This document shows, piece after piece, positions 14,092-54,598 of a DNA stretch of 64,000 bases (position 1 is its first letter; every line of letters starts with the position of its first letter). Under the pieces are notes generated by a model. That model ran no database searches. It was not told the DNA's origin and saw nothing but the letters and a program-made list of their open reading frames with translations. Made by a program: the position numbers and the translations under genes. Origin of the DNA: Leptolyngbyaceae cyanobacterium JSC-12 (GTDB taxonomy: Bacteria; Cyanobacteriota; Cyanobacteriia; Leptolyngbyales; Leptolyngbyaceae); assembly GCA_000309945.1 (NCBI GenBank), contig CM001633.1:3126199-3190198 (forward strand). Reading direction: 5' to 3'.

Positions 14092-14131
14092 TTTCTCAAT
14101 ACAATGAAGATTTCAATGGAGGCATTCAGCT

Positions 14132-14605: not shown

Positions 14606-14608
14606 TTC

Positions 14609-14656
14609 GTAGTGTTCGCTGGAGTGAACATCAGCAACAACTAAAGTCGTTACTAC
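14609..14656. repeat. GTAG-type REP palindromes (pair)
   Basis: A GTAG head followed by the imperfect palindrome TGTTCGCTGGAGTGAACA is paired with an inverted unit ending CTAAAGTCGTTACTAC. GTAG followed by a palindrome is the hallmark of REP sequences recognised by RAYT transposases, and the facing pair resembles a BIME. Confidence 0.75.
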
Positions 14657-14695
14657 AAACCTTTTACCTTTTTACTTTTAGCTTTTGCCTGAATC

Positions 14696-15087: not shown

Positions 15088-15412
15088 TTTCTCATCCAAT
15101 TCTGAAACCCTCTTTGAAATCGTCACACCTCTTGGCTTTTCAGTGCGTACAACTGCTGAGTATTGGCAGTTCATCGTTACGATTAAGCATCCAATCCTGT
15201 TCAACCGCTTAACCGATGTCCAAAATACATTGAGCAACCCAGATGAAATTCGTCTCAGCAAAACGGACTCTCAGGTTTACTTGTTTTATCGTGATGATGG
15301 GGCAAGGCGGTGGGTTTGCGCCGTGGCAAGACGTTTGAATGGAGAAGGGTTTCTGATCACAGCTTATCGAACCAGCGCAATTAAAGAAGGAGATTCAGTA
15401 TGGCAGAAGTAA
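15077..15412 (+). CDS. DUF4258-like RelE/BECR-type toxin candidate
   Basis: A 111-residue protein. ATG 15077 is chosen; the preceding codons derive from the truncated methyltransferase. It has IKHPILFNRLTDVQNTLSNPDEIRLSKTD, then VYLFYRD and RWVCAVARRLNGEGFLITAYRT. This HPxL...P..I..S..D..VYLFY...R...V.......FI.TAY.T layout is that of small BECR/RelE-fold proteins paired with DUF2283 partners. A ribonuclease toxin role is inferred from family and context. It overlaps the DUF2283 gene by 13 bases. Confidence 0.75.
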   Translation: MTDDFSSNSETLFEIVTPLGFSVRTTAEYWQFIVTIKHPILFNRLTDVQNTLSNPDEIRLSKTDSQVYLFYRDDGARRWVCAVARRLNGEGFLITAYRTSAIKEGDSVWQK

Positions 15413-15612
15413 AGGTGTTTTATGATCGCACAGGCAACACGCTGGTGGTCTGGTTTGGTAATCCTCAAGATGAGGTTGAAGCTGAAGAAACCGGGGATGA
15501 GGTGATTTTGATGAAAGATCAGCAAGGAAAAGTGATTGGCTTTGAAAAGCTTAACTTTTTACCCCCTTCTGATAGCCCCGTCCGTATCGCCTTTGAAACA
15601 GTAGCTCTTTAA
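15400..15612 (+). CDS. DUF2283 antitoxin-like protein
   Basis: A 70-residue protein with the DUF2283 pattern: VFYDRTGNTLVVWFG, then EETGDEVILMKDQQGKVIGFEKLNFL. Members are small beta-sheet proteins that often sit immediately downstream of DUF4258 genes. The overlapping start (15400 within the preceding gene) fits translational coupling of a toxin-antitoxin pair inserted into the methyltransferase gene. Confidence 0.8.
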   Translation: MAEVKVFYDRTGNTLVVWFGNPQDEVEAEETGDEVILMKDQQGKVIGFEKLNFLPPSDSPVRIAFETVAL

Positions 15613-15616
15613 GCTC

Positions 15617-15692
15617 GTAGTGTTCACTTATCAGCAACGACTAAAGTCGTTACTACAAACCTTTTATCAGCAACGACTAAAGTCGTTACTAC
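15617..15692. repeat. GTAG-type REP cluster
   Basis: A GTAG unit at 15617 is followed by two near-identical inverted palindromes, CAACGACTAAAGTCGTTACTAC, ending at 15656 and 15692. They lie just upstream of methyltransferase copy B, as the related pair at 14609 does for copy A, so they were part of the duplicated segment. Confidence 0.8.
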
Positions 15693-16442
15693 GAACCTTT
15701 TACCTTTTTACTTTTACCTTTTGCCTGAATCATGACCCAGCAACCCATCTACGGCCCCCACAACCCCCACCCGCTCTCCCAAATGCGGACGGAACTGATC
15801 TGGGAGGGCAAGTATGATGAGTATGGCAACCGGCGGGAGGTGGATATTGCCGGGTGTGCCATGCCGATGCAGAAGATTGAAAGCATCGACGAACCGCGAC
15901 GGGCAGCGGCGGCGACGGGGCAGTTGGAGCGGTTTGCCATCCACATGTCGCGCAAGCGGCTGATTGAGCTTCAGCGCAAGTTGCACAGTGAGGGCAAACC
16001 CTATCGCGCCTTTGATGTCTATAACCTCGGTCGCTACGAGCGGCAGTGGTGGCAAAAGGATCGCTTGCAGGGAGCCGATGAAGAACACCGCCGGGTGATT
16101 CTAGAGTTCTTCAAAGCCGAAATCCTCACCAATACGCCCTCCCCCCTGTTGCATGGGCGCAAAGCCGGGGCATTTTGCCATGTGGATGGCATTGACTCCA
16201 TCTTTACCCGCGAAGAAGCCAAACAGGTCGCCCAAGCCGTTGCCGCAGCGGGTGGGCGGGAGTGCTATTGCCTCGCCTGGGAATTTGAGATGGACTTGCA
16301 CTTGACCGTGAATGCCCTAGTGCAAGAGTTGGGTGTAAAGCTCAAGCTAGTGCAAATTCCCCGCGAAATCATGGAGAAAAACCGCAAGTCGCCGCCGTTT
16401 TTGGAAGTGGCCGTCCTCACCGCCGAACCTGTGTATCGTTCT

Positions 16443-30064: not shown

Positions 30065-31117
30065 ACAGGGATTACGCAGTTGGATTGAGGATGAAACGAG
30101 GAGCCGCTAAAAAGGAGCGAATGGCATCCCGGACGATCGCCGCTTTCGCTTCGTACCAACTGATACCTGTCGTCCACATGTGCACCTCTAAGCGCAGGAA
30201 AGCGCGAATGGCTAAACCCACATGATTGCGCTGGGCACGACTTGAGCGAACCTGCGCCCGTTCAACGCCACAGCACTGTTTGAGTCCGCGATGGTACTCC
30301 TCAATTGCCCAACCAACCTCGGCAAATTGCAGCCGTTGTAGCTCACCCATCCCCAGGTCATTGGTTGCCCAGTAATCAATGTCACCGTTTGGGGCAACCA
30401 TCTTGAACACTTTGATGAACCCATAACCTTTGAGATGGAGCACCGTGCCAGTCGCCGCAAGCACGACCTTATGCAGAGGGCGATTGCCTGTATTGTCCGG
30501 GTTGACCTGCCGATTGCGCTTGAGTCGAGTCAACCAAATCCAACCATAATCTCGAATCAACTTAAGGTTCTCCAAGCTACTGTACCAACTATCAAACACC
30601 ACACATCGGGGCGCAAACCCTCGTTCCTTGGCAGTTTCAAGCATCGAGCGGAAGTGGTCGTTTTTGGTTGAGCCATCGACACCCTTTTCGTAAAATCGAT
30701 AGTCCAACGGAAGGTGACGGTCTCCCTCACTCCATAGCAGCGTAATTAGGTTGATGCCTTGCACTACCCGTCCATGCTTGCCCGACCAGTGCCGAGTCAC
30801 CAATTCCATCTTCTTGGCATACCACTTGTCGAGCGTTGAGTCATCTACCACTAAAATTCCCTGGTGCAACCGTACTTGCGACTGCGCTTCTTGCCACAAC
30901 TGCTGAGTCGATGGCTCCAGTCGATGCAACAACCGAGTAATTGCGTCATGGGCAGCGGCATTATCAGACTCCGGTTGCACTCGTTCGGCTTCCGTGCAGC
31001 TATAGGCCTTCTGCGCCGCAATCAGAAAGTTGATGTAGTCGTATTCGTTGACTTTGGGTGGATTCATTTCTTGGTTCTACCGCACCTCCCCTTTTTTCTC
31101 AACTGCGTAACTCCTGT
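30065..31117 (-). mobile_element. Insertion sequence inside vapC
   Basis: A 1053-base element with inverted ends ACAGGGATTACGCAGTTG (30065) and CAACTGCGTAACTCCTGT (31117), two mismatches in 18. CCG flanks both ends (30062-30064 and 31118-31120) as a three-base target copy, possibly four (TCCG). The transposase stop codon lies within one end. Confidence 0.85.
30072..31067 (-). CDS. DDE transposase (IS4-superfamily)
   Basis: A 331-residue transposase with probable catalytic residues Asp in ILVVDDSTLDKW, Asp in CVVFDSWYSS and Glu in EEYHRGLKQCCGVERAQVRS. GKHGRVVQGINLITLLW is typical of this group in cyanobacteria. Complete and within its inverted ends, so probably functional. It is unrelated in detail to the transposase at 28281. 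Confidence 0.85.
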   Translation of the reverse strand: MNPPKVNEYDYINFLIAAQKAYSCTEAERVQPESDNAAAHDAITRLLHRLEPSTQQLWQEAQSQVRLHQGILVVDDSTLDKWYAKKMELVTRHWSGKHGRVVQGINLITLLWSEGDRHLPLDYRFYEKGVDGSTKNDHFRSMLETAKERGFAPRCVVFDSWYSSLENLKLIRDYGWIWLTRLKRNRQVNPDNTGNRPLHKVVLAATGTVLHLKGYGFIKVFKMVAPNGDIDYWATNDLGMGELQRLQFAEVGWAIEEYHRGLKQCCGVERAQVRSSRAQRNHVGLAIRAFLRLEVHMWTTGISWYEAKAAIVRDAIRSFLAAPRFILNPTA

Positions 31118-38587: not shown

Positions 38588-38803
38588 CGTTGTGTTTAAC
38601 AGCTTGCTGCTACAGAGTTTAGCAGGCTGATTCGTAAGAATGCTTCATGGACTGTTGTGACAGAAAATTAACCGCCTGAAGTCAAAGTGCACATAGGGCG
38701 AACGTGAACAAGCATTGTTTCCCTACCAAATAGTGGAGATTAAAGGGAAAAATATCAGGTATGCAAGCCTTATGGGTTGGCAGGAATGAGCGGGAGTAAC
38801 AGA

Positions 38804-41800
38804 ATGGATGCAATCTATCACAACGCATTGAACAATTTGGCGTTTATCGCTCAGGGGCGCTGCTACCTGTGGAAGCCTGAATTGATATGGTTACATGCTT
38901 TATCGGATGGTTTGATTGCACTGGCTTATTTCTCCATTCCGATCGCCTTACTCTACTTTGTGCGACGGCGTCGAGATTTGCCCTACCCCTGGATTTTTCA
39001 ACTGTTTGGAGTATTTATTATCACCTGTGGACTGACGCATGCCATGGGGATTTGGACTCTCTGGAACCCAACTTACTGGGTTTCTGGGTGGCTCAAGGTT
39101 GTGACAGCCTTGGTCTCTTTAACAACTGCAGGGGCATTGATGCTGTTGATTCCCAAAGCTCTCACCTTACCTGGCCGTGGTGAACTGGAGATGCTGAACG
39201 AAGCATTGGAACGACAAGTGCGCGATCGCACTCAGTCACTTCGTCAGAGTAAAAATCAATATAAGTCGTTACTGGACTCTGTGAATGGCATTGTTTGGGA
39301 ACTTGATGTTGCAACCTTTTGCTTTACGATTGTTAGCCAAAAAGCGGAAGACATTCTGGGTTACTCTGCTGAACAGTGGTTAAATGAGCCGGATTTTTGG
39401 AGTAGCCATATTCATCCTGACGACCGAGACCAAACTGTAGAATTTTGCAGCCAGATGGTGCAGTTGCGTCGAGATCATGAGATGGAGTATCGCATGATTG
39501 CCGCGGATGGACGTGTGGTTTGGTTGTGGGATCAAGTTAGGGTGTTGACAGAGGACGATCGCCCGGTGAAGCTTCAGGGGATCATGATAGACATTAGTGA
39601 TCGCAAAGCTACCGAAGCAGCCCTGGCTGAATCACGTCAGCGATACCAGGATCTCGTAGAAAATTCTCCTGACATTATTGAGCGCTTTGATTTACAACTG
39701 CGGCATCTCTATGTCAGCCCTACCTTAACTGAAATTACGGGGATTCGGGCGGATGCCTTTTTAGGTAAAACCTGCCGTGAACTGGGCATGGATGAAACGA
39801 TGATCAATACCTGGGAATCTGCCGTGGTGAAATTGTTGGCAACAGGGGAAAAACAGACGATTGAATTTTCGACTCCCACCCTCAGCGGAGAGCATTCGTT
39901 TGAAATGGCGATCGCGCCAGAATGGGCAGAAGACGGAACAATTCAGTCAATTCTCTGCATTTCCAGAGATATTACTGATCGCAAGCTTGTTGAACAAGCA
40001 CTCAAAACCCAGCGCGACTTTAACCAGCTTATTGCCGAAATAACAAGCCGATTTGTGAATCTCAGTCCTGAACATCTAGACGCTGAGATCGAGCGAACTT
40101 TGCAACTGGTTACTGAAGTAACTCAGATCGATACAAGCTATTTATTTCGTTTTGATGATAACAATCGCACCACTAGCATGACCCATGAGTGGTGTCAACC
40201 CCATTTCTCTCCACAAATTGCCTCAGCACAGAAGATTCCATTGACCGTCTTCCCCTGGTCGATCTCCAAGCTCAAACAGGGAGAAATTCTCTACGTTCCC
40301 AATTACGCAGATCTACCTCCAGAGGCAGAAATCGATCAAAGAGGGTTTCAGCAATTTAATCTGGTGGCAGCCCTTTTGGTACCGTTGGTTGGACGGAGCG
40401 GCGTTTTTGGGACAATGGGATTTGCGTCCTTTAGTCAACCACTAACCTGGAGCGAGGAAACGATTCGGTTGCTCACTGTCCTTACCCAAACTATTGCCAA
40501 TGCCCAGCAACAGGCGGAAGATGAGCACCAACTAGCCATCAGTGAAGAGCGTTTGCGGTTAGCCTTATCCGCCGCCAATCAGGGATTATACGACCTCAAT
40601 ATTCAAACTGGGGAAGCGGTTGTCACTCCGGAATATGCCCTGATGCTCGGCTATGATCCGGCGACTTTTGAGGAGACCAATGCCCGCTGGATTGAACGCC
40701 TGCATCCTGACGATCGCGCCCCAATTACTGCTACTTATCAAGCCTATGTTGCAGGAACTTTGCCAGAGTACAAGGTGGAATTTCGCCAACGTACTCAGTC
40801 TGGGGATTACAAGTGGATTTTGTCGATGGGCAAAGTTGTTGCGTGGGATGATGAGGGCACTCCCACCCGGGTCATTGGCACTCTTACGGATGTTACTGAG
40901 CGGAAACAGGCAGAAACGCAACTTCAAGACTTAACTAACCGCCTAAAACTGGCGGCCCAAGCTGCCAAAATGGGCATCTGGGATTGGGACATCAAGCGCA
41001 ATCGCCTGACCTGGGATGAGCGTATGTATGAGCTTTACGGACTCCCGAATGAAGTTGTTCCCACCTATGAAGTCTGGGAAGCTGCCATCCATCCGGACGA
41101 TATCCTTCTTTGCCGCAGGGCAACTCAACAAGCCCTCATGGAACAGGATGAAGGAAAAAACGAGTTTCGCGTTGTGTTGTCCAATGGGGATCTGCGTTAT
41201 CTCGAATCCTATTTTCTTGTCCAGCGTGATGCTGAGGGGCATCCCCTGCGAATGATCGGAGTAAACCTGGATATCAGTGAGCGGAAGCAAGTGGAAGCTA
41301 ATCTCCGACAACAGCAGGAGTTGTTGCAAAGCGTCGTAGAAAATATTCCAGTGATGCTGGCATTTTTTGATGCAAATTCCCAATTTCAATGGGTTAATCG
41401 CACCTGGGAGCGGATACTGGGTTGGACGTTGGAAGAAGCCAAAGAGCGAGATTTACTGGCTGAATTTTATCCAGATCCAGAGTATCGAAGGCATGTCGCT
41501 AACTGCATCCAAACTGCTGATGGTATTTGGGAAGACTTTAGAATCCGCCTGAGAGACGGTACGTTCTTGGATACTGCCTGGGCAAATATTCGTTTATCCA
41601 ACGGCACTTCAATTGGGATTGGGCAAGATATTAGCGATCGCAAACGAGCAGAAGAGGCAAGACTCCAGGCAGAAAAATTACGTCTGGAACTAAACCTGCT
41701 GGAGTCCATTTTGGATAATGTCCCGGCTGGTTACTGGGATGACAATTTTGCCACGGGCGTTAGCTATTGGAGTCCTGGTCTTAAACGCATGTTTGGCTAT

Positions 41801-43174
41801 GAAGATCACGAACTGCCCAATATCCCAGAACTTTGGCGAAGTCTCATTTTTGCTGAAGATTTACCAGGTGTTTTGGAACGGTTTGATCGCCATGTGCAAA
41901 GTCGGGGAAAAGTCCCTTACTACAACGAAGTCCGCTGTCGCCACAAAGATGGCTCAACTGTTTGGGTGATTTGCTCAGGGCAAGTCATTGACTGGGATGC
42001 GGAAGGTCAACCGTTGCGGATGATTGGGTGCCATGTAAACATTACCAAACAGAAGCAAACAGAAGCCCAACTAAAAAATCTCTCTGATCGTTTGACATTG
42101 GCACTCCGATCAGGAGCGATCGGTACTTGGAACTGGGATCTCTGCCGTGAGGTCAATTGGGATGATGGCATGTACAAAATTTATGGGTTGCAACATCTGG
42201 GTCGTAACGCTATCTATCAGGATTGGATAGAGCGAGTGCATTCGGATGATCGAGCCAGGGTTGAAGCTGCCTTGCAAGCGGCAGTTCGGGGGGGACGGGA
42301 TTATGATTTGGAGTTTCGCATTTACCACACTGATGGCGAACTCCGTTGGATCAAGGCAACTGCCCTGGTGCAGCGTGATGCAATGGGCAATGCACTCTGC
42401 ATGACAGGGATTAACTATGACATTACGGAAGTGAAACAAGCCGAGGCAACCATTCTCCAAACAACCGTTCAATTGCAAGCCTCAAATCGGGAACTGGAAG
42501 CATTTGCTTACTCTGTCTCCCATGACCTGAGAGCACCGCTGCGGGCAATCGATGGGTTTAGTCAGGCGTTGCTAGAAGACTATGGCGATCACTTTGACGA
42601 TGAAGCCAAAGATTACTTCGCCCGCATTCGGCACAATGTTCAACGCATGGGCAACCTGATCGATGACTTGCTCAGTCTGTCTCGTGTTTCCCGATTCGAG
42701 ATGCAATGTAGGACGGTTAACCTTTCTGAATTGGTGCAAGAGCAGGCACACGAATTACAAATGTCAGATCCACAGCGGCAGGTGGAGTTTGTCATTACTC
42801 AGGGCGCGATCGTTGCTGCTGATCCTACCCTGATGCGTGTTGTCATTACCAACCTTCTGGAAAATGCCTGGAAATTTACTAGTCACCATTCCTCTGCTCG
42901 GATTGAATTTGGCACAATCAAACGAAATGAGCAGTCCGTTTATTTTGTCCGCGACGATGGAGCAGGCTTTGATATGGCGTATGCGGCTAAACTGTTTGGG
43001 GTCTTTCAGCGCTTGCACAATACCCATGAATTTCCGGGGACGGGGATCGGTTTAGCCACCGTTCAACGGATTATTCATCGGCATGGTGGTCAGGTTTGGG
43101 CAGAAGGCATGATTGAGCACGGTGCCACAATCTACTTCACAATTCCTGATATATCTCTCGCAGAAAGAATCTAA
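38804..43174 (+). CDS. Ethylene-receptor-like multi-PAS histidine kinase
   Basis: About 1456 residues. The first 110 hold three membrane spans like the ethylene-binding domain of plant ETR1 and cyanobacterial SynEtr1. Cys75-x3-His79 in IITCGLTHAMG matches the copper-binding Cys/His pair. Then follow a coiled coil, PAS, PAS, GAF (about 410-590), five more PAS domains (WELDV, WDWDI, WNWDL type), a HisKA domain with His1240 in YSVSHDLRAPLRAI, and an ATPase domain (NLLENAWKFT, DDGAGFDM, GTGIGLATVQRII). The histidine region is of the phytochrome-like type. Start 38804 has GGGAG upstream; 38786 is an alternative. It leads an operon with two receiver genes 3 bases apart. Confidence 0.87.
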   Translation: MDAIYHNALNNLAFIAQGRCYLWKPELIWLHALSDGLIALAYFSIPIALLYFVRRRRDLPYPWIFQLFGVFIITCGLTHAMGIWTLWNPTYWVSGWLKVVTALVSLTTAGALMLLIPKALTLPGRGELEMLNEALERQVRDRTQSLRQSKNQYKSLLDSVNGIVWELDVATFCFTIVSQKAEDILGYSAEQWLNEPDFWSSHIHPDDRDQTVEFCSQMVQLRRDHEMEYRMIAADGRVVWLWDQVRVLTEDDRPVKLQGIMIDISDRKATEAALAESRQRYQDLVENSPDIIERFDLQLRHLYVSPTLTEITGIRADAFLGKTCRELGMDETMINTWESAVVKLLATGEKQTIEFSTPTLSGEHSFEMAIAPEWAEDGTIQSILCISRDITDRKLVEQALKTQRDFNQLIAEITSRFVNLSPEHLDAEIERTLQLVTEVTQIDTSYLFRFDDNNRTTSMTHEWCQPHFSPQIASAQKIPLTVFPWSISKLKQGEILYVPNYADLPPEAEIDQRGFQQFNLVAALLVPLVGRSGVFGTMGFASFSQPLTWSEETIRLLTVLTQTIANAQQQAEDEHQLAISEERLRLALSAANQGLYDLNIQTGEAVVTPEYALMLGYDPATFEETNARWIERLHPDDRAPITATYQAYVAGTLPEYKVEFRQRTQSGDYKWILSMGKVVAWDDEGTPTRVIGTLTDVTERKQAETQLQDLTNRLKLAAQAAKMGIWDWDIKRNRLTWDERMYELYGLPNEVVPTYEVWEAAIHPDDILLCRRATQQALMEQDEGKNEFRVVLSNGDLRYLESYFLVQRDAEGHPLRMIGVNLDISERKQVEANLRQQQELLQSVVENIPVMLAFFDANSQFQWVNRTWERILGWTLEEAKERDLLAEFYPDPEYRRHVANCIQTADGIWEDFRIRLRDGTFLDTAWANIRLSNGTSIGIGQDISDRKRAEEARLQAEKLRLELNLLESILDNVPAGYWDDNFATGVSYWSPGLKRMFGYEDHELPNIPELWRSLIFAEDLPGVLERFDRHVQSRGKVPYYNEVRCRHKDGSTVWVICSGQVIDWDAEGQPLRMIGCHVNITKQKQTEAQLKNLSDRLTLALRSGAIGTWNWDLCREVNWDDGMYKIYGLQHLGRNAIYQDWIERVHSDDRARVEAALQAAVRGGRDYDLEFRIYHTDGELRWIKATALVQRDAMGNALCMTGINYDITEVKQAEATILQTTVQLQASNRELEAFAYSVSHDLRAPLRAIDGFSQALLEDYGDHFDDEAKDYFARIRHNVQRMGNLIDDLLSLSRVSRFEMQCRTVNLSELVQEQAHELQMSDPQRQVEFVITQGAIVAADPTLMRVVITNLLENAWKFTSHHSSARIEFGTIKRNEQSVYFVRDDGAGFDMAYAAKLFGVFQRLHNTHEFPGTGIGLATVQRIIHRHGGQVWAEGMIEHGATIYFTIPDISLAERI

Positions 43175-43177
43175 GCT

Positions 43178-43600
43178 ATGAGTGCTTTGCGTGCGATCGT
43201 TCTGGTTGAAGATAACCCTGATGATGAACGCCTTACACTCCGTGCTCTGCGTCGCGGCAGGATCACCAATGAAATTCTTGTAGCTCGAAATGGAGAAGAG
43301 GCTTTAAACCTCATTTTTAGTCTGGACCCGCTGCCCTGCGTCACTCTACTCGATCTCAAATTGCCCAAAATCGACGGCTTAGAGGTTTTGCGACAACTCC
43401 GAGCCAATGAGCGCACCCGACTGTTACCTATCGTTGTGTTAACCTCTTCCAGTGAAGACCGTGATGTGATTGAGAGCTATAGTTTAGGAGCCAATAGCTA
43501 TGTCCGGAAGCCTGTTGAAATTGACCGATTTACAGAGGCTATTCGTCAACTAGGGCTGTATTGGGCACTGCTGAATGAACCGTTACCGGGAGGGTTGTAA
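43178..43600 (+). CDS. Rcp1-like single-domain response regulator
   Basis: A 140-residue receiver: IVLVEDNPDDERLTLRAL with the acidic pocket, phospho-acceptor Asp59 in VTLLDLKLPKIDGLEVL, VVLTSSSED and the Lys in SYVRKPVE. It matches the Rcp1/CphR-type partners of phytochrome-like kinases. Three bases after the ethylene-receptor-like kinase and three before the hybrid kinase, so it is likely a phosphate shuttle between them. Confidence 0.9.
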   Translation: MSALRAIVLVEDNPDDERLTLRALRRGRITNEILVARNGEEALNLIFSLDPLPCVTLLDLKLPKIDGLEVLRQLRANERTRLLPIVVLTSSSEDRDVIESYSLGANSYVRKPVEIDRFTEAIRQLGLYWALLNEPLPGGL

Positions 43601-43603
43601 TCC

Positions 43604-45907
43604 ATGAGTACCCCCCTCAAGGTCTTGATGGTTGAAGACTCGGAAGACGATGCGCTGCTGCTACTACGAGAGTTGCGGCAGGCTGGGTTCAGCTTGACTT
43701 GGGAACGAGTACAAACAGCGGAAACATTGCAGGCGGCTTTGGCAAAGCAAGCTTGGGATGTCATTATTTCTGATTATCGCTTGCCAGGGTTTGATGCCAG
43801 AGGGGCGCTGGAGGTTGTGCAGCAAAGTCAGCTTGATCTGCCATTTATTGTTGTATCGGGAACAATCGGTGAAGAGCAGGCAGTTGCCATGATGAAGGCA
43901 GGTGCCCATGATTATTTGATGAAAGGCAATCTTGTTCGATTAGCAGAAGCGGTGCGGCGGGAGGTGCGAGAGGCATTGATTCGAGCAGAGCGCAAACAAG
44001 CAGAAATCCGGTTACGGCAAACTGCTGAACGCGAACAGTTGGTGCGAATGGTGACTGAGCGGATTCGGCAATCCCTGAATTTGGATCATATTTTTACGAC
44101 GACGGTTACTGAGGTGCGCCGGGTGCTAGCGACGAATCGAGTGATTCTGTTCAGGCTAAGTTCTGATGAACGCGGGTATGTTGTCCAAGAATCTGTTGAT
44201 GCGGGTTGGCAATCGATAATCGGACAGGATATTGATGATCCATGTTTGCGATCGCAGTATGTTGACTTTTATGCCGAGGGACGAGTGCGTGCGATCGTTG
44301 ATATTGAGGATGGCAGCATCCAACCTTGCCATGCGGATTTTCTCAGGCAGTTCCAGGTTCGTGCCAATCTGGTTGTACCTATTATTCAACCCGGTGGATT
44401 GTGGGGATTGTTGATTGCTCATCATTGTGCTGGGAAACGCCAGTGGACTGAGGATGAAATCCGGTTATTGAAACAACTGGCAGATCAGGTTGCGATCGCT
44501 ATTCAGCAAGCGAATCTTTATCGACAAGCCCAACTGGAATTAGCGGAACGTCAACGAGCAGAAGCCACTTTGCAACAACTGAACCAGGAACTGGAGCAAC
44601 GTGTGCAAAGGCGCACCCAATCGTTGCAACAACAGGCAGAACAGGAACGCCTGTTGCGCCTGATTATTCAAAACATTCATCACTCGCTGGACTTAGAAGA
44701 AATTCTGACCACAGTGCTTAATGAAACTCGTCAGACGCTTCAGGTAGACCGAGTAGCAATTTATCAATTCGCTCCAGATTGGAGTGGATCATTTGTAGCA
44801 GAGTCGGTGGCAGAGGGGTGGGTTCCCTTGGTTAAGGAGGGGGTTCAGACTCTATGGGAAGATACCTACCTGCAAGAAACTCAAGGTGGACGCTATCGTC
44901 AGAATGAAACGTTTGCAGTTAACGATATCCACACAGTTGGGCACACTTTGTGCCATGTTGAGATATTGGAACAATTCCAGGTTCGCGCCTACGTGATTGC
45001 TCCTATCATTCTAGACAACGAGCTTTGGGGCTTGCTGGCTGCCTACCAAAACAGCGGCACTCGCGAATGGCAGGACTGGGAAGTGCAATTATTACGCCAG
45101 GTGGGGATACAGACAGCGATCGCGCTACGTCAGTCTCGTTTGTACCAAACTGCCCAAACCCAGGTAAAAGCCTTGGAGCAGTTAAGCCAGTTGAAGGATG
45201 ATTTTCTCAGTGCCGTCTCTCATGAACTGCGATCGCCTCTGGCAAATATCAAAATGGCAATTCAGATGGTGAAATTGAATCTGAACCAGCACACAATTCA
45301 AGACGATCAACTAAACCGTTATCTTCAAATCTTAGAAGAATCCTGCAACCAAGAACTCATGTTGATTAACGACTTGCTTGACTTGCAGCGACTGGAAGCA
45401 GGAGTTCAGTCACTGGAATTAGAAAGTGTGGATCTCAACTATTGGTTGCCATCGATTGCAGAACCCTTTGAAGTCCGCGCCCATGAACAGCAACAAGATT
45501 TAAACATTGACTTAGCACCAAATCTACCACCGATTACGACTGATTTATTTGCTTTAAGGCGCATTTTAGTAGAGTTGCTGCATAACGCTTGTAAATATAC
45601 TCCGCCTAATGAACAAATCACATTAACAGCCCAAACCATTCATACAACGCTAAAAATTCAAGTCAGCAATTCAGGCGTGGAACTTCCACCAGAAGAATTG
45701 CCACGGTTGTTTGAGAAGTTTTACCGCATTACCAGTATTGATCGATGGAAGCATGGCGGCACCGGACTGGGGTTAGCCCTAGTAAAGCGCTTGGTTGAAC
45801 ATTTGAACGGTTCAATTGAAGTGGAAAGTGCTAACTCTCTCGTTTGCTTTACGGTTTATTTACCCTCAAAATACAACCCTGTAAGCCTCTGTGAGGAAAT
45901 ACTTTAA
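43604..45907 (+). CDS. Receiver-GAF-GAF histidine kinase
   Basis: A 767-residue soluble hybrid kinase. An N-terminal receiver (Asp57 in DVIISDYRLPGFDA) is followed by two GAF domains (about 150-305 and 345-510) separated by a coiled coil, HisKA with His540 in SAVSHELRSPLANI and an ATPase domain (LLHNACKYTP, GGTGLGLALVKRLVEHLNG). Neither GAF domain shows the cysteine expected for a bilin chromophore at a clear site, so they probably bind other ligands. Third gene of the operon; the N-terminal receiver suggests it is controlled by the upstream kinase. Confidence 0.88.
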   Translation: MSTPLKVLMVEDSEDDALLLLRELRQAGFSLTWERVQTAETLQAALAKQAWDVIISDYRLPGFDARGALEVVQQSQLDLPFIVVSGTIGEEQAVAMMKAGAHDYLMKGNLVRLAEAVRREVREALIRAERKQAEIRLRQTAEREQLVRMVTERIRQSLNLDHIFTTTVTEVRRVLATNRVILFRLSSDERGYVVQESVDAGWQSIIGQDIDDPCLRSQYVDFYAEGRVRAIVDIEDGSIQPCHADFLRQFQVRANLVVPIIQPGGLWGLLIAHHCAGKRQWTEDEIRLLKQLADQVAIAIQQANLYRQAQLELAERQRAEATLQQLNQELEQRVQRRTQSLQQQAEQERLLRLIIQNIHHSLDLEEILTTVLNETRQTLQVDRVAIYQFAPDWSGSFVAESVAEGWVPLVKEGVQTLWEDTYLQETQGGRYRQNETFAVNDIHTVGHTLCHVEILEQFQVRAYVIAPIILDNELWGLLAAYQNSGTREWQDWEVQLLRQVGIQTAIALRQSRLYQTAQTQVKALEQLSQLKDDFLSAVSHELRSPLANIKMAIQMVKLNLNQHTIQDDQLNRYLQILEESCNQELMLINDLLDLQRLEAGVQSLELESVDLNYWLPSIAEPFEVRAHEQQQDLNIDLAPNLPPITTDLFALRRILVELLHNACKYTPPNEQITLTAQTIHTTLKIQVSNSGVELPPEELPRLFEKFYRITSIDRWKHGGTGLGLALVKRLVEHLNGSIEVESANSLVCFTVYLPSKYNPVSLCEEIL

Positions 45908-47598: not shown

Positions 47599-48201
47599 TT
47601 ACTCTCTAATCTCAATTTTTTTTGCGGCAACGCCTGCAACAATAGAGTAAGGTTCTAAACTCCTGGTTACAACAGCTCCCGCACCGATTACACAACCTTT
47701 GCCAATCGTGCACCCGTCTAAAATAGTGACACCTGCACCAATCCACACATCATCTTCGACTATGATTCCTTGCCGCGTCGGAGTTTGAAGTTTAATCGGG
47801 ATATTTCGATCTTTAAACCCATTGTTGGCAGGTACCATTGTGACTTGAGGTCCGATTAAACAACTATTTCCAATGGTCAAGTCACCATGGCCATGTAGCA
47901 CTGTGAAGGAATTAACAAAACACGAATCTCCAATCTTGATGGTTCCACCATGTGTTCGAAGAATAACGAAAGAACTAATCAGAGTATTGTTCCCAATCAC
48001 AATTTTGGATTCACCAACGTCAATCGTATCAACCTCCAACGTTGCATATTTACATATTGTGCTTCCTTCGCCAATAAAAATACTTTTTCTTTTGCCTCGA
48101 ATATCAGCTAGAAGATTAACGTTTGCATCTTTTCCAATTGCACCCAGACGTGCTTTTTGGTAACGCCAGATGATGTTTTTTAAGAGGACTTGCGGTTTCA
48201 T
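47599..48201 (-). CDS. Hexapeptide-repeat (LbH) O-acetyltransferase
   Basis: A 200-residue left-handed beta-helix protein with many hexads (IVIGNNTLISSFVIL, TIKIGDSCFVNSFTVL, LTIGNSCLIGPQV) and the ending IIVEDDVWIGAGVTILDGCTIGKGCVIGAGAVVT that is typical of the WbbJ/maa group. The catalytic His is likely that in TVLHGHGDL. It would acetylate a sugar in the cytoplasm. It lies between the E3-like gene and GT87 in a glycan cluster. Confidence 0.8.
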   Translation of the reverse strand: MKPQVLLKNIIWRYQKARLGAIGKDANVNLLADIRGKRKSIFIGEGSTICKYATLEVDTIDVGESKIVIGNNTLISSFVILRTHGGTIKIGDSCFVNSFTVLHGHGDLTIGNSCLIGPQVTMVPANNGFKDRNIPIKLQTPTRQGIIVEDDVWIGAGVTILDGCTIGKGCVIGAGAVVTRSLEPYSIVAGVAAKKIEIRE

Positions 48202-48289: not shown

Positions 48290-50116
48290 CTAATCCTCCA
48301 TGTCGATTGTTAGACTGCCCATATAAATCGTTACTGATTTGTCTAAAAGATTCAAAGTTACGCAGGTCGAGTTTGGATCTACTTCATAACTGAAATCAAG
48401 ACCTTTAGCCCAATAAAGTCCTTGAGCAGAACGTCTCAGGACAATGCTTGTTTGAGATTTTTCGCTTCCAAGTAAGGTCTTGATTCCTAACAAAGTTGCA
48501 AAGTAAAGACTGGGATTTTGATCGAGGATGCCGATCGCTCGTTCTTCTGGCGTAAAAACAGTTTGGTAGAAAGAGCTACGATGAATGTGTGAAACTGGGG
48601 GCAGGCTGATCAGGGTCGAGGGAACGTCTGAGCCTGATTGGACAGTTGTACCTAACAATCCTTCGCTGCTGCGAGTTGCCAGTTCTCCTGCTTCAATATC
48701 CTCAATCATGATCTTGAAAATTTCGGCAGATGTCGGATGGATCGAGGAAGTAAGCCACCGGGTATCGGTAACGGGCAAATCAATCAAGACAGAGGCGAGT
48801 GAAATTAACTCTGAGGCGTCGCGATGGCAAATGTGAATTGCTTCTACTTTTTTGTCTTGAGGATTGTAGAGATACCAAAGTTTTCCAGCTTCGTTATGCA
48901 CCGCAGACCAGCCGAGCATCTTAAAGTCAACAGAGCGCCAATTGGGATAAAGAAGTGTCCACGGTCCTCCCACCATGGCAAATGATTTACGTGCATGAAC
49001 CCTGACAGGCAACCGAGCAAAGTCTTGCATTTGGGAAAGTTCTCCGCTTGACCAAGCATTGGCTAGCTGTTTTGCTTGCAGTTCTGCTTCGGTTGCAGAA
49101 AGAAAGCCAGAGGCATCGCCTAAAACATAAATGTTCGATCGCCCAATCACGCTGGCTTGCCTTAAGTCTAGATCCAGAATTGTTTTTGAACTGCCATCAA
49201 TGGGGGGGAGGTTTAACTCCGGCACCCCGTCATACATCACATGATCAAAGTCAATAGACTTCAGTTTTCCTTGAATTTTGATCAGTAAACGATTGTCATC
49301 TCGCCCTTGAACTTTGGCAGGCGAGAGAATTTCAACTCCCTGCTTTTCCAGTTCTCGCCTGAAATATTGGAAGGATGGTAAGTGTCCTAGGAGGGGCGGT
49401 GAAGTGAAGATGACTGTAATATCCAGTCCGCGATCGCGAGCGATGCTGGCGTAGGTCAGTGAAGCAACGTTTCCATCTGAAACAATGACTAGCTTGCCAG
49501 AGAGAATGTCCCAAAATTCCTTCAAAGAACAGGTTGGTTCTAGCAAACTCCATTTAGGCTGACGATTTCCAGTTGCTAAAACCAGTCGATCAAATGGATA
49601 GGTTTCTCCAGTATGAAGCACAACCCGATTGCCCTCTACCGCTGTTACCTCGCCCTGCACTAACGGAAAGCCAAGCTCTTTAAAGCTCTGTTCGGTCGCT
49701 TTTCGAAGAGATGTGACAAATGCCTTCCCTTTTTCAAGGGCAATACTTGGATCTTCGTCTCGATGAGCCATGTAAAACTCTGACGGCATACAACCGTAGT
49801 TGACGCACTTACCACCAAACGCCTCATCCCGTGCGATGATGGTGACATTCGTATAGCCTAGACGACGCAGCGATCGCACAAATGCAAAAGCTGCAATGCC
49901 AACACCAACCACCACAATTGCCTCATCCTGGCGCACGGATGAATCTGAGCGCTGAGAAAGGTTGAACCATTTGACTGGGTCAATATATCGAAATTTACCC
50001 ATATCAAAACGAATTTTATAAAATATCCCCTGCTCAAATGCCCAGGAGAATGAGTTAAACGCCTGCTTCCCTAAGCTGACGCTATTTAGCGATCGCGAGA
50101 ACGGTTGCCACAGCAT
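48290..50116 (-). CDS. Dihydrolipoamide dehydrogenase-like flavoprotein (E3)
   Basis: A 608-residue disulphide oxidoreductase. FAD motif VVGVGIAAFAFVRSL, then the redox pair Cys-x4-Cys in GGKCVNYGCMPSEF, an NAD-like domain beginning KLVIVSDGNVASLTYASIA with a weakened glycine motif, NIYVLGDASG contacting FAD, and a dimer domain ending HPTSAE, matching the His-Glu pair of lipoamide dehydrogenases. About 100 extra C-terminal residues (after about residue 500) have no clear match. It overlaps the ACP-AcpS gene by 35 bases if ATG 50116 is used; ATG 50002 would avoid this. It likely reoxidises the lipoyl arm of the E2 encoded two genes upstream. Confidence 0.8.
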   Translation of the reverse strand: MLWQPFSRSLNSVSLGKQAFNSFSWAFEQGIFYKIRFDMGKFRYIDPVKWFNLSQRSDSSVRQDEAIVVVGVGIAAFAFVRSLRRLGYTNVTIIARDEAFGGKCVNYGCMPSEFYMAHRDEDPSIALEKGKAFVTSLRKATEQSFKELGFPLVQGEVTAVEGNRVVLHTGETYPFDRLVLATGNRQPKWSLLEPTCSLKEFWDILSGKLVIVSDGNVASLTYASIARDRGLDITVIFTSPPLLGHLPSFQYFRRELEKQGVEILSPAKVQGRDDNRLLIKIQGKLKSIDFDHVMYDGVPELNLPPIDGSSKTILDLDLRQASVIGRSNIYVLGDASGFLSATEAELQAKQLANAWSSGELSQMQDFARLPVRVHARKSFAMVGGPWTLLYPNWRSVDFKMLGWSAVHNEAGKLWYLYNPQDKKVEAIHICHRDASELISLASVLIDLPVTDTRWLTSSIHPTSAEIFKIMIEDIEAGELATRSSEGLLGTTVQSGSDVPSTLISLPPVSHIHRSSFYQTVFTPEERAIGILDQNPSLYFATLLGIKTLLGSEKSQTSIVLRRSAQGLYWAKGLDFSYEVDPNSTCVTLNLLDKSVTIYMGSLTIDMED

Positions 50117-50783
50117 AGTGGTTGGAATGACTGATACTAACTTGAAAACTAAACCTGGAATCGATGCTGGAATGACTCGTATTGATAGAAGGACGTCCCT
50201 GGCGATGATGTACCTGAATTTCGTCCATCCGCAGATGAATCAGTTCCGGTGCAGATTTCTTCAAAGCTTCTTTTGCACAAAAAATACCGCACAGATGAAG
50301 ACGTGGTTCCGGCTTCAGCAGCGCATAAGAAATTTCCTCATCGTTAAACAAGCTTCGGTAAAAATCATGGATGCGGTAATTGGAGGTCACAGGTAAGTGG
50401 TCAACTTCCTCAATATCAACTCCAATAAACAGTCCACCCACGCTCAGCGCTGAGGATTTACTCTCTAAGTTCAAGGAAGGAATACGCTCTTGAGAGCCTG
50501 GAATTTCGCTAGTTCTAGACGCTGCACTACCAGCAGTTCCGTTGTTTGAGGATTGTCCAACCTGAGCTGCAATTTTATCGATTGTCCATGTATCTCCCAG
50601 CGGTGGCAGCTTTTGATTAAACTTCCGTTCCAAAGCACTTTGAATTTTGAGAATTTCAATAGAAGACGTAATCCCTAAAGAACGCAAATTCACATCTGGC
50701 AGAAGCCGTTCGCGTTCCTTACCTGAAATGGTTGAGATGATTTCCAGAACAGTATCCACGTTAAAATCCTCCCAGACAAACAT
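50082..50783 (-). CDS. Acyl carrier protein fused to phosphopantetheinyl transferase (AcpS)
   Basis: A 233-residue fusion. Residues about 1-75 form a carrier domain: VDTVLEIISTISGKERERLLPDVNLRSLGITSSIEILKI, in which Ser40 (GITSS) is the expected attachment site, although the usual DSL is TSS. A polar linker of about 45 residues follows. The C-terminal 120 residues are a holo-ACP synthase: GGLFIGVDIEEVDHLP with the metal Asp, and FCAKEALKKS with the catalytic Glu-Lys. The enzyme can thus prime its own carrier. I use ATG 50783; 50825 is also open. It overlaps E2 by 23 bases and E3 by 35, so it is part of the dehydrogenase operon. Confidence 0.82.
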   Translation of the reverse strand: MFVWEDFNVDTVLEIISTISGKERERLLPDVNLRSLGITSSIEILKIQSALERKFNQKLPPLGDTWTIDKIAAQVGQSSNNGTAGSAASRTSEIPGSQERIPSLNLESKSSALSVGGLFIGVDIEEVDHLPVTSNYRIHDFYRSLFNDEEISYALLKPEPRLHLCGIFCAKEALKKSAPELIHLRMDEIQVHHRQGRPSINTSHSSIDSRFSFQVSISHSNHYAVATVLAIAK

Positions 50784-52233
50784 GGCAGATGTAAGCTGTT
50801 TGCCCTTTATCGTTAACATGGACATGCATTAAGGCATCTTTGCCAAATTTCTGATAAAGCGAATCTAGATCGATCAAGCAGCGATTACAGGTGATTGTTT
50901 GCGTTTGCACAGTTGCTTGTGCCACAGGTAGGTTTGCTAACTGATAGCTCAGTAAGCGATCGCGGAGGGTATTGAGGAAGAGAGCTACTTCCCGACCCGC
51001 TAAGATCCGGTGATCGAATACAAGCGTTAACGTCATTGGATACCCTTCTATGGTGCTATCCCCGCCAATTCCCAAAATAACAGCCTGGTTTTGATTAATT
51101 AATGGCTGGAAGTGAAGAATTTTCTCGTTGGACAGATCGCTAATTGTAATAGTGCTACCAGTCAGGTCTTCTACAGTTAGCTGATTTTCTAGATAGCGTG
51201 TGGCAAAATCGGTGACTGTTTCTAAAATTTCAGCTGGTGAAAGCTGATTTGCATTGCGGATTACTGGAACCTTTAGCCCCTTGCCCAAATCAATGGCTAA
51301 ACCAAGATCGATGCGATCATAATAAAAAATCTGCCCAGCTTCGTAATATGCCGTAAATGCTGGATACTCTTCCAGGAGACGCGCTAACTCAAACAAAATG
51401 AGCGGCAAGACCTGACCATTGAGGGAACCCATTTCTTCCAGCGTCTGCCGAATCCCCGCAGAGTTGAACTGTAGAGTAAGAGAACTGTTGATACCTCCAG
51501 ATTGTCCTGCCGTTAGTAGACTAATTTCTAACTGCTTTGATTTGCTGACTTTTTCAGAGCGTAGTCCTGGGTTAGTGACTGATGGAACAGTGACTTTCTG
51601 ACCATTGTTCAGGTGAGATGGCAGGGCAAAGGCTGGGTCAACGGCAGGAGTCGCCACAGGCTGACGAATTCCCAATACGGTTTCAATGACTTCAACTGAA
51701 ACTAGCCCCATGCCCTCAAACAATGCTGGGTCGAGTTGATGTTGCTGAATGTATTCTTGAGCAGACTTGGAAAAGCGAGTAAAGGTGAAAGTGGGTTGCA
51801 ATTTTTGATGGTTCGCGATCGCGTCCTGGGCTAGCGATGGGGTTTGCACAGAGAGCGATGAAGTTGCTGGGGATTGATGGTTCTGTCCCACCGCAACAAG
51901 TTGTGTTGGTGCTTCGACGGGTGTTGCCTGACTGGGGCGATAGCTCACAGCTTCAGTCCTTTGACCATTGCCTTGCAAATCAGCATCCAGTTCCTCAAGT
52001 GAGGTGTAAAATACTGCCAGCGGAACGCCAACCTTCACAGTATCGCCTTTTTGAAAACAGCAAGAAATATACCCTGATGTTTCGCTTTCAATGCTAACAA
52101 CTGCTTTAGACGATTCCAGATCAACAATTTCTTGTCCTTTTTCGACATACTCCCGATCTTTGAAGTACCAGTGCACTACATCCACTTCATCATCGTTAGT
52201 ATTCAGTCGCGGAACCAACAGTTCATACTTCAT
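50761..52233 (-). CDS. Dihydrolipoamide acyltransferase-like E2 with C-terminal zinc ribbon
   Basis: A 490-residue protein. Residues 1-80 are a lipoyl domain with Lys43 in DLESSKAVVSIES. A long Gln/Ser/Thr linker is followed by a peripheral subunit-binding-like segment (FSKSAQEYIQQHQLDPAL) and a catalytic domain ending FDHRILAGREVALFLNTL. His408 is present, but the Asp of the usual HRxxDG is Ala412. After this domain comes an extra tail with CNRC (449-452) and CHVC (483-486), a probable zinc ribbon that standard E2 proteins lack. It overlaps E1 by 11 bases. Confidence 0.82.
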   Translation of the reverse strand: MKYELLVPRLNTNDDEVDVVHWYFKDREYVEKGQEIVDLESSKAVVSIESETSGYISCCFQKGDTVKVGVPLAVFYTSLEELDADLQGNGQRTEAVSYRPSQATPVEAPTQLVAVGQNHQSPATSSLSVQTPSLAQDAIANHQKLQPTFTFTRFSKSAQEYIQQHQLDPALFEGMGLVSVEVIETVLGIRQPVATPAVDPAFALPSHLNNGQKVTVPSVTNPGLRSEKVSKSKQLEISLLTAGQSGGINSSLTLQFNSAGIRQTLEEMGSLNGQVLPLILFELARLLEEYPAFTAYYEAGQIFYYDRIDLGLAIDLGKGLKVPVIRNANQLSPAEILETVTDFATRYLENQLTVEDLTGSTITISDLSNEKILHFQPLINQNQAVILGIGGDSTIEGYPMTLTLVFDHRILAGREVALFLNTLRDRLLSYQLANLPVAQATVQTQTITCNRCLIDLDSLYQKFGKDALMHVHVNDKGQTAYICHVCLGGF

Positions 52234-54223
52234 GGATGAATCCTAAGATTGATGTAACGATATTATCCACATTCGGCAGCATCTCTTTTTCCGCCGGACC
52301 GCAGGCGGGAATAGGAATTGCTTGCGGAACAACTCGTTTGACTCGTTTAAGTAATGCTGCATTGTGCTCAGCGATTTGAGCCACCACTTCCGCTCCAAAC
52401 CCAGCAAATCCCTGCCCTTCCTCAATCAGAACCAGAAACTTACTATCAGCCAGTAGATGAATGAAAGGCTTGATACTGAATGGATAAATTTGTGTTGGGC
52501 ACAGAATTTGGGAAACCAGATCAAACTCTTCAAATAACCTTTCGGCAACTGTAACGAGGGTATCACTCAGTCCTCCATAACCGATCAACGTAATATCTAA
52601 CGCAGTTGATTCAGGCTTCAGCCAAACCGTAGGAAACGTCTCATTAGAGGTCAATAACTGAAACCCTTCCGGCAATTTCTCACGCAAGTTCAAAGAATAC
52701 AAAAGTTTATTCTCAATTAATAGGGTAGGGTCACCGCTGGACTGAATCAGAGGTTGGTAAACTTGCATCGGCTCAATCAAATTGTTGATGGCGACAATCC
52801 TCAAGCCCGGAATACCCATAAAATGCCGATCCAGCGTTTGGCTATGGGTTGGACCATAACCTCGACCACCCCCCATCGGAGACCGAACAACCAAATTCGT
52901 AGAGACCTGGTCGTTATACATGTACTTGAATTTGCTGGCATGATTGAGTAATTGATCGAGGATCAGGGTTGTAAAATCGCCGAACATAATTTCGACAAAC
53001 GGTCGATACCCTTCCATCGCTAAACCACACCCAATTCCAACAATTGCGGACTCAGAAATTGGAGTATTAAAAACTCGCTCAGGAAACAGATCGGAAAGAC
53101 CTTGAGAAACTTTGAAAGCCCCTCCATAAGGGGACTTAACATCTTCACCGATGAAGGTAATCTTGGAGTCTTGCGCCATCAATTCTTTAAATGTTTGATT
53201 AAGTGCTTGAACGAGTCGCCTTTTTTCTACCTTAGACTCAGTCCACTCAATTCGAGATGGCTCATTTGAAGAGACTTCTGCAGTGGCATACGGAGCTGCA
53301 TCTGCTGCTGCAACTGCCTCATCGACAAGTTGGTTGATTTCGGTCAATAAGTTAACCAATTCAGCAGAGGGGTCTGCAAGTAATAGGTTCAATGGGTCGC
53401 GCTGTTCAAACGGTTCTACTTCGCTTCTCGGACGATTATCATCTCCCTTCGAGTGAGCTTTAAGTCTAAATGTATCGATTTGTAGGAATGCTGGTTTAGA
53501 TTCTTGTCTGACATACGCTACTAGCTCATTAGCAATAGAGTATAAACCTTGCCAGTTCCAGGTATCTGCCTTTTCTGTCCGAATGCCAAATGCAGCTGCG
53601 CGATCGCAGATATTTCCAGCTAGCGTCTCTTGTTGATTGGTGGATTGAGCATAACCATTGTTCTCAAGCACTACCAGCAGAGGCAGTTCCCATTTTGAGG
53701 CAATGTTAAACGCCTCATAGATAGCACCCTCTCCCAATGTGCCATCCCCAATGAACACAACCGAAATCTTGTTATCTCCATTAAACTTGCGGGCAAGGGC
53801 TAATCCAGCAGAAACGGGCACGATACCCCCCTGAATTCCATTGGAGTAGAAGCCATTTTTACAGAGATGCTGGCTTCCACCTCGTCCACCGCAAACGCCC
53901 GTTTGCTTACCCATGATTTCTGCTATCAGCCCATGAACATCATCGGTGAAAGAGAGAAAATGCCCATGGCAACGGTGATTGGAAAAAATTGAATCCCCTA
54001 GTTGCAAAAACTCTGTCAATACAGCTCCCGAAAACTCCTGACCGATGCAAGTATGAACCGTGCCGAACAGCTTGCCTTGACTAAAAAGTTCTAGCAGCCT
54101 CTCTTCAACTCTGCGTGAGAGCAACGCTTTGCGAATAATTCGTCGTTTCACTTCAGGGTGAAGCGTGTTGCCTTCAACCAGACTTAGAGACACTGAGTTA
54201 TCAACTGCTATTTCGTAAGTCAT
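52223..54223 (-). CDS. Fused E1 alpha-beta of a 2-oxoacid dehydrogenase-like complex
   Basis: A 666-residue thiamine-diphosphate enzyme. The alpha half (1-310) has TVHTCIGQEFSGA, SNHRCHGHFLS, the TPP motif GDG (159-161) to NN (188-189) and FRLKAHSKGDDNR in the phosphorylation-loop region. The beta half (340-666) has ITFIGEDVKSPYGGAFKVSQGL, NTPISESAIVGIGCGLAMEGYRPFVEIMF and the Arg-rich MGGGRGYGPTHSQ. Fused E1 subunits occur in acetoin- and branched-chain-type dehydrogenases. Substrate unknown. It heads the E1-E2-(ACP-AcpS)-E3 operon; 375 bases upstream are free of genes. Confidence 0.9.
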   Translation of the reverse strand: MTYEIAVDNSVSLSLVEGNTLHPEVKRRIIRKALLSRRVEERLLELFSQGKLFGTVHTCIGQEFSGAVLTEFLQLGDSIFSNHRCHGHFLSFTDDVHGLIAEIMGKQTGVCGGRGGSQHLCKNGFYSNGIQGGIVPVSAGLALARKFNGDNKISVVFIGDGTLGEGAIYEAFNIASKWELPLLVVLENNGYAQSTNQQETLAGNICDRAAAFGIRTEKADTWNWQGLYSIANELVAYVRQESKPAFLQIDTFRLKAHSKGDDNRPRSEVEPFEQRDPLNLLLADPSAELVNLLTEINQLVDEAVAAADAAPYATAEVSSNEPSRIEWTESKVEKRRLVQALNQTFKELMAQDSKITFIGEDVKSPYGGAFKVSQGLSDLFPERVFNTPISESAIVGIGCGLAMEGYRPFVEIMFGDFTTLILDQLLNHASKFKYMYNDQVSTNLVVRSPMGGGRGYGPTHSQTLDRHFMGIPGLRIVAINNLIEPMQVYQPLIQSSGDPTLLIENKLLYSLNLREKLPEGFQLLTSNETFPTVWLKPESTALDITLIGYGGLSDTLVTVAERLFEEFDLVSQILCPTQIYPFSIKPFIHLLADSKFLVLIEEGQGFAGFGAEVVAQIAEHNAALLKRVKRVVPQAIPIPACGPAEKEMLPNVDNIVTSILGFIHEV

Positions 54224-54598
54224 ACTCAGAACTTGTAAATTAGGTATCTACGAGAAACTGCTAAGCGATTCAACTACAGGGCTATTCACCCAAAAAGCTC
54301 AGAAAACCTCAAGTGACCTGGAAAACCAGAGAAGGCTTTAGGCTTGCACTAAAAGCCAGAGTACAACCACACCAACTTAACTTAACTTAAATCTTATAAT
54401 CATACTGTCCAAAATATATGAAGGTTTGGTAAACACTTGGACTGCTTTGAAAAGACCTTGAATAGTTTAGTGAAGCACTGAATTTCTCCTCAATTTTTAC
54501 AGTGTCTTTTGTGGTAGCAATTCAAACCAAGAAGTTAAGCTAAAACACTGAAAAGACAGAGTACAAGATGTAAAGAAGCCAGCAAACAAATTGAAAAC
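54224..54598. other. Intergenic region upstream of the E1 operon
   Basis: An AT-rich gap of 375 bases that should contain the promoter of the E1 operon (minus strand) and the end of the acyltransferase transcript. A tandem run AACTTAACTTAACTTAAAT lies near 54375-54393. No hairpin with a T-run or known binding site is recognised. Confidence 0.5.

Follow-up and report, generated by a model that had tools for sequence, protein, structure and literature searches.

The closest described relatives of the system considered here are pairs of E1- and E2-like proteins, of the kind found in 2-oxoacid dehydrogenase complexes, that load an acyl carrier protein (ACP); in the available text of the sources cited here they are known from a few antibiotic-type pathways. 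For QncN, QncL and QncM, production and attachment of a two-carbon glycolic unit is reported as shown (PMC6335953), and DinS/DinU have been assigned, by homology to NapB/NapD, the delivery to the ACP DinT of a hydroxyethyl unit derived from xylulose 5-phosphate (PMC7570522). Pepteridine synthesis, for which 2-oxoacids are given as the source, is reported to require the carrier serine of an E2-T-C fusion, and its authors expected the E3 to be borrowed from the host (PMC5384830). Here we describe an operon on the minus strand of a 64,000-nucleotide stretch of the genome of Leptolyngbyaceae cyanobacterium JSC-12 (contig CM001633.1, positions 3,126,199 to 3,190,198; this whole stretch is called the window). 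In order of transcription it encodes a fused E1, an E2, an ACP fused to an AcpS-type phosphopantetheinyl transferase (ACP-AcpS), an E3-like flavoprotein and a hexapeptide acyltransferase, an arrangement on which open reading frames and Pfam agree. On balance it is probable that the operon is a self-contained acyl-ACP factory whose hexapeptide transferase then passes the acyl group to an acceptor.

The kinship of E1 and E2 to such pairs is supported. E1 matches the Pfam families E1_dh (2.3e-46), Transket_pyr (1.4e-27) and Transketolase_C (2.6e-10) and is 57.6% identical to RenH of the renieramycin cluster over 97% of its length; the four best of the 258 plasmid records that match it at 1e-30 are RenH (57-58% over 97%). 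E2 (Biotin_lipoyl 6.6e-10, 2-oxoacid_dh 1.3e-37) is 41.7% identical to RenI over 87% of E2, and the only plasmid records matching it at 1e-20 are the four Ren records. Trees of the alpha half (20 rows) and the beta half (21 rows) of E1, both with midpoint roots, set the window E1 and a group of E1s from similar cassettes apart from pyruvate dehydrogenase (PDH)-type E1s at 100/99 and 100/100 respectively. The group comprises the window, its counterpart (locus L013) in the sister genome G002 (Leptolyngbyaceae cyanobacterium C42_A2020_001), RenH and loci L028, L029, L034, L035, L038 (Streptomyces) and L039 (Paenibacillus), joined in the beta tree by L056 and L057. The branching order within it is less sure than its separation from other E1s. 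Residues found only in the group include the proline of 'PYxGA', a glycine replacing the usual histidine after the HSQ motif and the lysine of 'HSKGDD'. In a sample of 386 genomes from the phylum, E1 matched 10 other genomes at 1e-60, four of them within the cassette group and six outside it. An earlier note on this DNA had proposed kinship to ACP-loading pairs of the NapB/NapD and QncN/QncL kind, and this holds by way of RenH/RenI, the trees and the ACP genes that lie beside members of the clade.

A small ACP gene was found close to E1/E2 in all eight of the other cassette loci inspected (L028, L029, L034, L035, L038, L039, L056 and L057). The one in L034 scores 20.4 bits against a Pfam cut-off of 20.8, and those of L056 and L057, which a motif scan did not show, were recognised by their reading frames. 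A profile built from ten cassette ACPs, with the tested group left out each time, recovered the ACP in seven of these eight loci (L057 at 7.1e-7; L056 was missed) and gave no match in any of 12 loci with other E1s (3.9 to 21.9 kb in length; 11 are in the alpha tree). Outside those 12, a weak match (0.048) was seen at L047, the locus of the genome's own PDH E2. A serine preceded by Thr or Asn instead of Asp was considered as a signature of these ACPs and dropped; L057 has D-S and L056 has E-S.

In the window the ACP (PP-binding, 2.8e-5) keeps the phosphopantetheine serine, within LGITSSIEIL, and the transferase part of the fusion (ACPS, 1.9e-11; 44.4 bits against a cut-off of 25) carries the motifs GVDIEEV and FCAKEALKK. 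Motifs of the GVDIxxV and FxxKEA types are expected of an AcpS. A plasmid search with ACP-AcpS returned a single record, an AcpS-like match in Acetoanaerobium. The sole other match in the genome to the phosphopantetheinyl transferase family (L001, 1501-1821) lies within a longer Sfp-like frame of 277 aa, which makes the AcpS type of the operon the odd one in the genome.

By alignment E2 has a single lipoyl domain with its lysine in SSKA, keeps the catalytic histidine in DHRILAG and is divergent in the subunit-binding region. Its C-terminal CxxC...CxxC tail (window 50761-50955) was seen, among the aligned E2s, only in the window and L013, is absent from RenI, and is 85% identical in L013 with a weak zinc-ribbon match (0.037) that falls below the cut-off. 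Loss of the Asp of the HxxxD motif was considered as a mark of ACP use and dropped; the genome's own PDH-type E2 has Tyr at that position.

The E3-like flavoprotein (Pyr_redox_2, 1.2e-16) keeps the disulfide CVNYGC (CxxxxC) and the His-Glu pair in HPTSAE. The GxGxxG of the NAD(P) site is replaced by SDGNVA in the window and L013 alike, whereas three reductases of the same genome have GGGYIG, GGGPIG and GSGYIG there. No weight was given to the lack of an acidic residue where the nucleotide-binding strand ends; two of these three reductases also lack one. The protein scores under every NCBIfam cut-off listed, and a PF02852 search of its own genome did not list it. Its tail, from about residue 504 on, is similar to the operon's AcpS but lacks the metal-site (catalytic) Asp and Glu. 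In four pairwise comparisons of tail and AcpS, 0 or 1 of 2000 shuffles did as well; the tail scored 57 against 24-39 for other tiles of the protein, and a single hhalign comparison gave an E of 3.6e-5 with a probability of only 71%. Pfam found nothing in the tail alone up to E 10, and an AlphaFold model of the protein, made from two sequences, has a mean pLDDT of 38. A plasmid search returned a single record, annotated lpdA, and no E3 homologue was seen in the Ren set, in the proteins compared from L038 and L039, or in the reading frames of L056 and L057. A dedicated flavoprotein therefore appears unusual in a cassette of this type.

The five genes occur in the same order in L013, with amino acid identities from codon alignments of 89% (E1), 82% (E2), 81% (ACP-AcpS), 80% (E3) and 91% (hexapeptide acyltransferase), so that the conserved unit extends one gene past the four of the earlier note. 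Ratios of nonsynonymous (dN) to synonymous (dS) substitution against L013 are 0.04, 0.07, 0.11, 0.06 and 0.02 in the same order, rough values by NG86 with dS above 1. Since dN/dS is low on all five genes, the operon is judged from the alignments to be no chance assembly and to be under selection. The note had asked whether the E1-E2-(ACP-AcpS)-E3 block occurs in other genomes, and in the sister species it is kept in order beside ftsQ-ftsZ: in G002 a small gene lies 120 bases away, and after it come ftsQ, ftsZ, a metallo-lactamase gene and thiD. In the window these ftsQ-side genes are reached after about 9 kb containing a GT87 gene and three more whose products read as signalling proteins, so that the operon lies on the same chromosomal side in both species. 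The three putative signalling genes (38777-45907) are absent between operon and ftsQ side in G002. Two relatives have no block at this site and show the small gene followed by a putative membrane-protein gene: G001, of the same genus (84% complete, on a contig of 9.7 kb), and G408, of the same family. In G416 neither block nor small gene was matched. Presence in G002 and absence from the site in G001 and G408 makes it look as though the block was gained or lost as one unit. At E<=1e-60 E1 matches four of 42 genomes of the family (the order-level sample is the same 42), G000 and G002 with the E1 of the operon, G401 and G409 with one of the other type. E3 matches 10 of 20 relatives at E<=0.001, with close matches only in its own genome and G002.

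Gene boundaries were refined by comparison with L013 (Table 1). Open reading frames and Pfam confirm the four-gene order given by the earlier note, and its overlaps of 11 bases (E1/E2) and 35 bases (ACP-AcpS/E3) are present and recur in L013 (383-2383/2373-3836 and 3838-4503/4469-6298). The 23-base overlap it gave for E2 and the ACP does not fare so well, depending as it does on an ATG at 50783 that is probably no true start. In L013 the earliest possible start of ACP-AcpS is a GTG one base past the E2 stop, and because there is none earlier the equivalent GTG in the window is favoured. For E3 there are two candidate starts, 50116 and a later ATG at 50002; over codons 13-39, outside the overlap, dN is 0.17 and dS 0.67 between window and L013, a pattern that lends weak support to the longer form. 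A promoter scan gave no sigma-70-type match upstream of E1 and five promoter-like sites against 11 expected by chance, and a terminator scan gave nine terminator-like sites against 6.7 expected by chance.

Table 1. Coordinates in the window of the operon genes and of conserved sequence upstream of E1.
Feature	Coordinates	Strand	Basis
E1, fused alpha-beta, thiamine diphosphate (ThDP)-dependent, RenH-like, 666 aa	52223..54223	-	Pfam; RenH identity; trees
E2, lipoyl domain, acyltransferase core and CxxC...CxxC tail	50761..52233	-	Pfam; alignment; RenI identity
ACP fused to AcpS-type phosphopantetheinyl transferase, GTG start 50759	50082..50759	-	Pfam; motifs; L013 start
E3-like flavoprotein, AcpS-like tail from about residue 504	48290..50116	-	Pfam; motif alignment; pairwise tests
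Hexapeptide (left-handed beta helix) acyltransferase, fifth conserved member	47599..48201	-	Pfam; 91% identity in sister species
Candidate regulatory sequence upstream of E1, 73 bases, contains TTAAGTTAAGTTAAGTT	54369..54441	-	86% identical in L013
Second conserved stretch, 39 bases, abutting E1 start	54224-54262		85% identical in L013

Homology, motifs, clade and conservation are established by sequence; from these we infer each catalytic step as well as the donor, the electron acceptor and the final acceptor. Since published relatives are reported to load a two-carbon unit from ketose phosphate onto an ACP, the formation of acyl-ACP is the reading we prefer, and by homology it is likely. E1, with ThDP, would cleave a ketose phosphate or a 2-oxoacid and place a small acyl group on the lipoyl arm of E2. 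A unit of two carbons (glycolyl, or acetyl if pyruvate is the donor) is rather more probable than not, given the relationship to RenH/RenI and the way the Qnc and Nap sets are laid out; the choice of a ketose phosphate rather than a 2-oxoacid as donor is evenly balanced. E2 would then transfer the group to the phosphopantetheine of the dedicated ACP, installed there by the fused AcpS, and not to coenzyme A (CoA), while the E3-like flavoprotein would reoxidise the dihydrolipoyl arm. The change in its nucleotide site suggests that NAD(P) is used weakly or that electrons go to another acceptor, and we would guess that the degenerate AcpS-like tail of the flavoprotein keeps the ACP near the complex.

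In the last step the conserved hexapeptide transferase would acylate a sugar or some other small molecule; a glycan-type acceptor reached in this way is a tentative proposal. The earlier note had named a downstream acetyltransferase as a user of acyl-ACP, and that neighbour has turned out to be the fifth conserved member of the operon, its use of acyl-ACP being conjectural. The glycan destination proposed in the same note is possible, as the polysaccharide loci that house two distant cassette relatives also contain Acyl_transf_3 or MBOAT genes. A fuller scenario is unlikely when taken as a whole, namely that a Calvin-cycle ketose phosphate is converted by E1/E2 to glycolyl-ACP, that the hexapeptide transferase glycolylates a surface sugar, and that a non-NAD flavoprotein docks the ACP via its dead AcpS domain. 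If true, it would show an ACP carrying two-carbon units for glycan modification, outside the making of antibiotics.

Several observations weigh against an acyl-ACP factory of this kind. RenH, the window and L013 share a fork that falls below the starred level (88/94 alpha, 91/92 beta) in trees that both carry long-branch warnings, and the link to QncN, QncL, NapB and NapD, whose sequences are not among the tree rows as RenH is, appears through layout and literature, not sequence comparison. The leave-one-out profile misses the ACPs of the window and L013, as it does that of L056, and the window ACP, though recognised by Pfam, seems to be no obvious descendant of the other cassette ACPs. Sugar and other acetyltransferases are closer matches to the hexapeptide protein than LpxA is, and acetyltransferases like its best matches use acetyl-CoA. 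The set, as judged by E1, was found in two of the 42 genomes of the family, and at E<=1e-12 E3 was found in one of the 386 genomes of the phylum sample, its own, G002 lying outside that sample.

The strongest alternative, itself unlikely, is that the operon is a natural-product starter-unit cassette, its acyl-ACP feeding a nonribosomal peptide synthetase (NRPS) or polyketide synthase (PKS) encoded elsewhere, the role supposed for RenH/RenI and the PKS-linked cassettes, and the hexapeptide gene specifying a tailoring enzyme. The nearest relative, Ren, does lie in a natural-product cluster, as by annotation do L038 and L039 and by reading L028 and L029. However, no NRPS or PKS domain was found among the 19 window genes scanned with Pfam, which lie between 30 and 62 kb (genes before 30 kb, several others and the rest of the genome were not scanned), and in the sister genome the operon directly adjoins the ftsQ side.

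A smaller chance is given to the proposal that acyl-ACP serves two membrane acyltransferases (Acyl_transf_3), 50% identical to each other, which are encoded upstream of E1 on the same strand, in the O-acylation of a surface glycan. They are adjacent to the operon, within a region that its Pfam content (GDP_Man_Dehyd, Epimerase, Glyco_tran_WecG) marks as a polysaccharide region, and the distant cassette relatives stand beside Acyl_transf_3 or MBOAT genes. Yet 375 bases with conserved stretches separate them from E1, and a search with one of the two gave no match at E<=1e-20 in G002, a genome that has the operon. The use of acyl-ACP by these proteins, put forward in the earlier note, is thus weakened, the operon of G002 joining the ftsQ side directly. 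Because the hexapeptide gene is kept in G002, its product is the better partner. A transposase gene (DDE_5) lies at window 30072-31067.

It is very improbable that the operon encodes an ordinary 2-oxoacid dehydrogenase complex making acyl-CoA, with ACP-AcpS nearby for an unrelated reason. E1, E2 and E3-like domains do share one operon, but E1 stands apart from PDH-type E1s, ACP-AcpS lies inside the operon in both species and the E3-like protein has lost GxGxxG. Moreover, one further E1-alpha and one further E2 score above the Pfam cut-offs in this genome (a third E1_dh match, in a 654-aa frame, is sub-threshold), and the operon is therefore an extra set. The weakest alternative, for which we see scarcely any likelihood, is that E1 adds a two-carbon unit to a ketosugar to form a branched-chain sugar with E2 and ACP as carriers; this would suit the polysaccharide setting and a role described, as a proposal, for E1-like pairs such as AviB1/AviB2 (PMC4425429), but would leave a lipoyl-bearing, catalytic E2, the ACP and E3 unneeded. 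A different fused E1 with no adjoining E2 recognised, possibly a branched-sugar enzyme, occurs among putative sugar-nucleotide and epimerase genes in L030 (8220-10277) and L031 (8364-10430).

As an acyl-ACP factory the operon would add several features to what is known: ACP and AcpS joined in one protein, a dedicated E3 that is altered in its nucleotide site and ends in a degenerate AcpS-like tail, the CxxC-CxxC tail of E2, and a carrier-loading cassette with no NRPS or PKS recognised nearby among the 19 scanned genes. It would also offer a clean system for studying the choice by E2 of ACP over CoA. The statement in the earlier note that no cyanobacterial system of this kind has been described is not fully right. 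Searches of open-licence literature aimed at a polysaccharide or cyanobacterial E1/E2 system with an ACP showed none among the papers listed. ACP-E1a-E1b-E2 cassettes are present in two genomes of the same class, at L028 (10257-13778) and L029 (11568-14911), between large genes read as polyketide synthases. In L028 an AprA-like methyltransferase protein is encoded upstream of the cassette.

Compared with known systems, the operon shares with RenH/RenI of Candidatus Endohaliclona renieramycinifaciens (MK748462-MK748465) a fused E1 followed by an overlapping E2. The Ren system differs in being an NRPS cluster with no discrete ACP, carrier motifs being found in the NRPS proteins; RenA-RenL show no match to the window ACP-AcpS or E3, and RenI is without the CxxC tail. 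QncN/QncM/QncL, NapB/NapC/NapD, SclQ1-4 and DinU/DinT/DinS likewise combine E1-alpha, E1-beta, E2 and a small ACP, the two-carbon role having been assigned by homology in Scl and Din (PMC6335953; PMC7570522). These sets, as described there, have split or E1-beta/E2-fused subunits, a discrete ACP and an NRPS product, and the available text of those accounts names no dedicated E3 or AcpS. Pepteridine E1 and Plu2796 are similar in that a carrier domain replaces CoA as the partner of E2 (PMC5384830), but that paper describes an E2-T-C fusion, 2-oxoacid donors, a pterin acceptor and a pathway with no E3. The housekeeping pyruvate dehydrogenase complex has the same E1, E2 and E3 domain plan and is set apart from the operon by its E1 clade and by the ACP-AcpS and altered E3 of the latter. 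Carrier proteins are also reported from another kind of glycan locus, the flagellin glycosylation islands of Enterobacteriaceae, with a presumed part in acyl decoration; the genes there are of fatty-acid type, and E1/E2 are not mentioned in the available text (PMC4875605).

The nearest parallels in a glycan setting are L034 (G044, 5021-13967) and L035 (G285, 3694-16033), E2-ACP-E1a-E1b cassettes in polysaccharide loci of small genomes from another class of the same phylum. By Pfam L034 encodes Acyl_transf_3, a deacetylase, a lipoate ligase and a phosphopantetheinyl transferase; L035 has genes of the L034 type by likeness together with MBOAT and AlgX-like genes by Pfam. Neither E3 nor NRPS/PKS was recognised in the stretches read. 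Both differ from the window in their split E1, lipoate ligase and separate phosphopantetheinyl transferase of another type, and share with it an E1 of the same clade, an E2, an ACP and a phosphopantetheinyl transferase of their own. A complete, portable version of such a set in the window, together with these relatives in polysaccharide loci, would suggest a more general route to short acyl-ACP donors.

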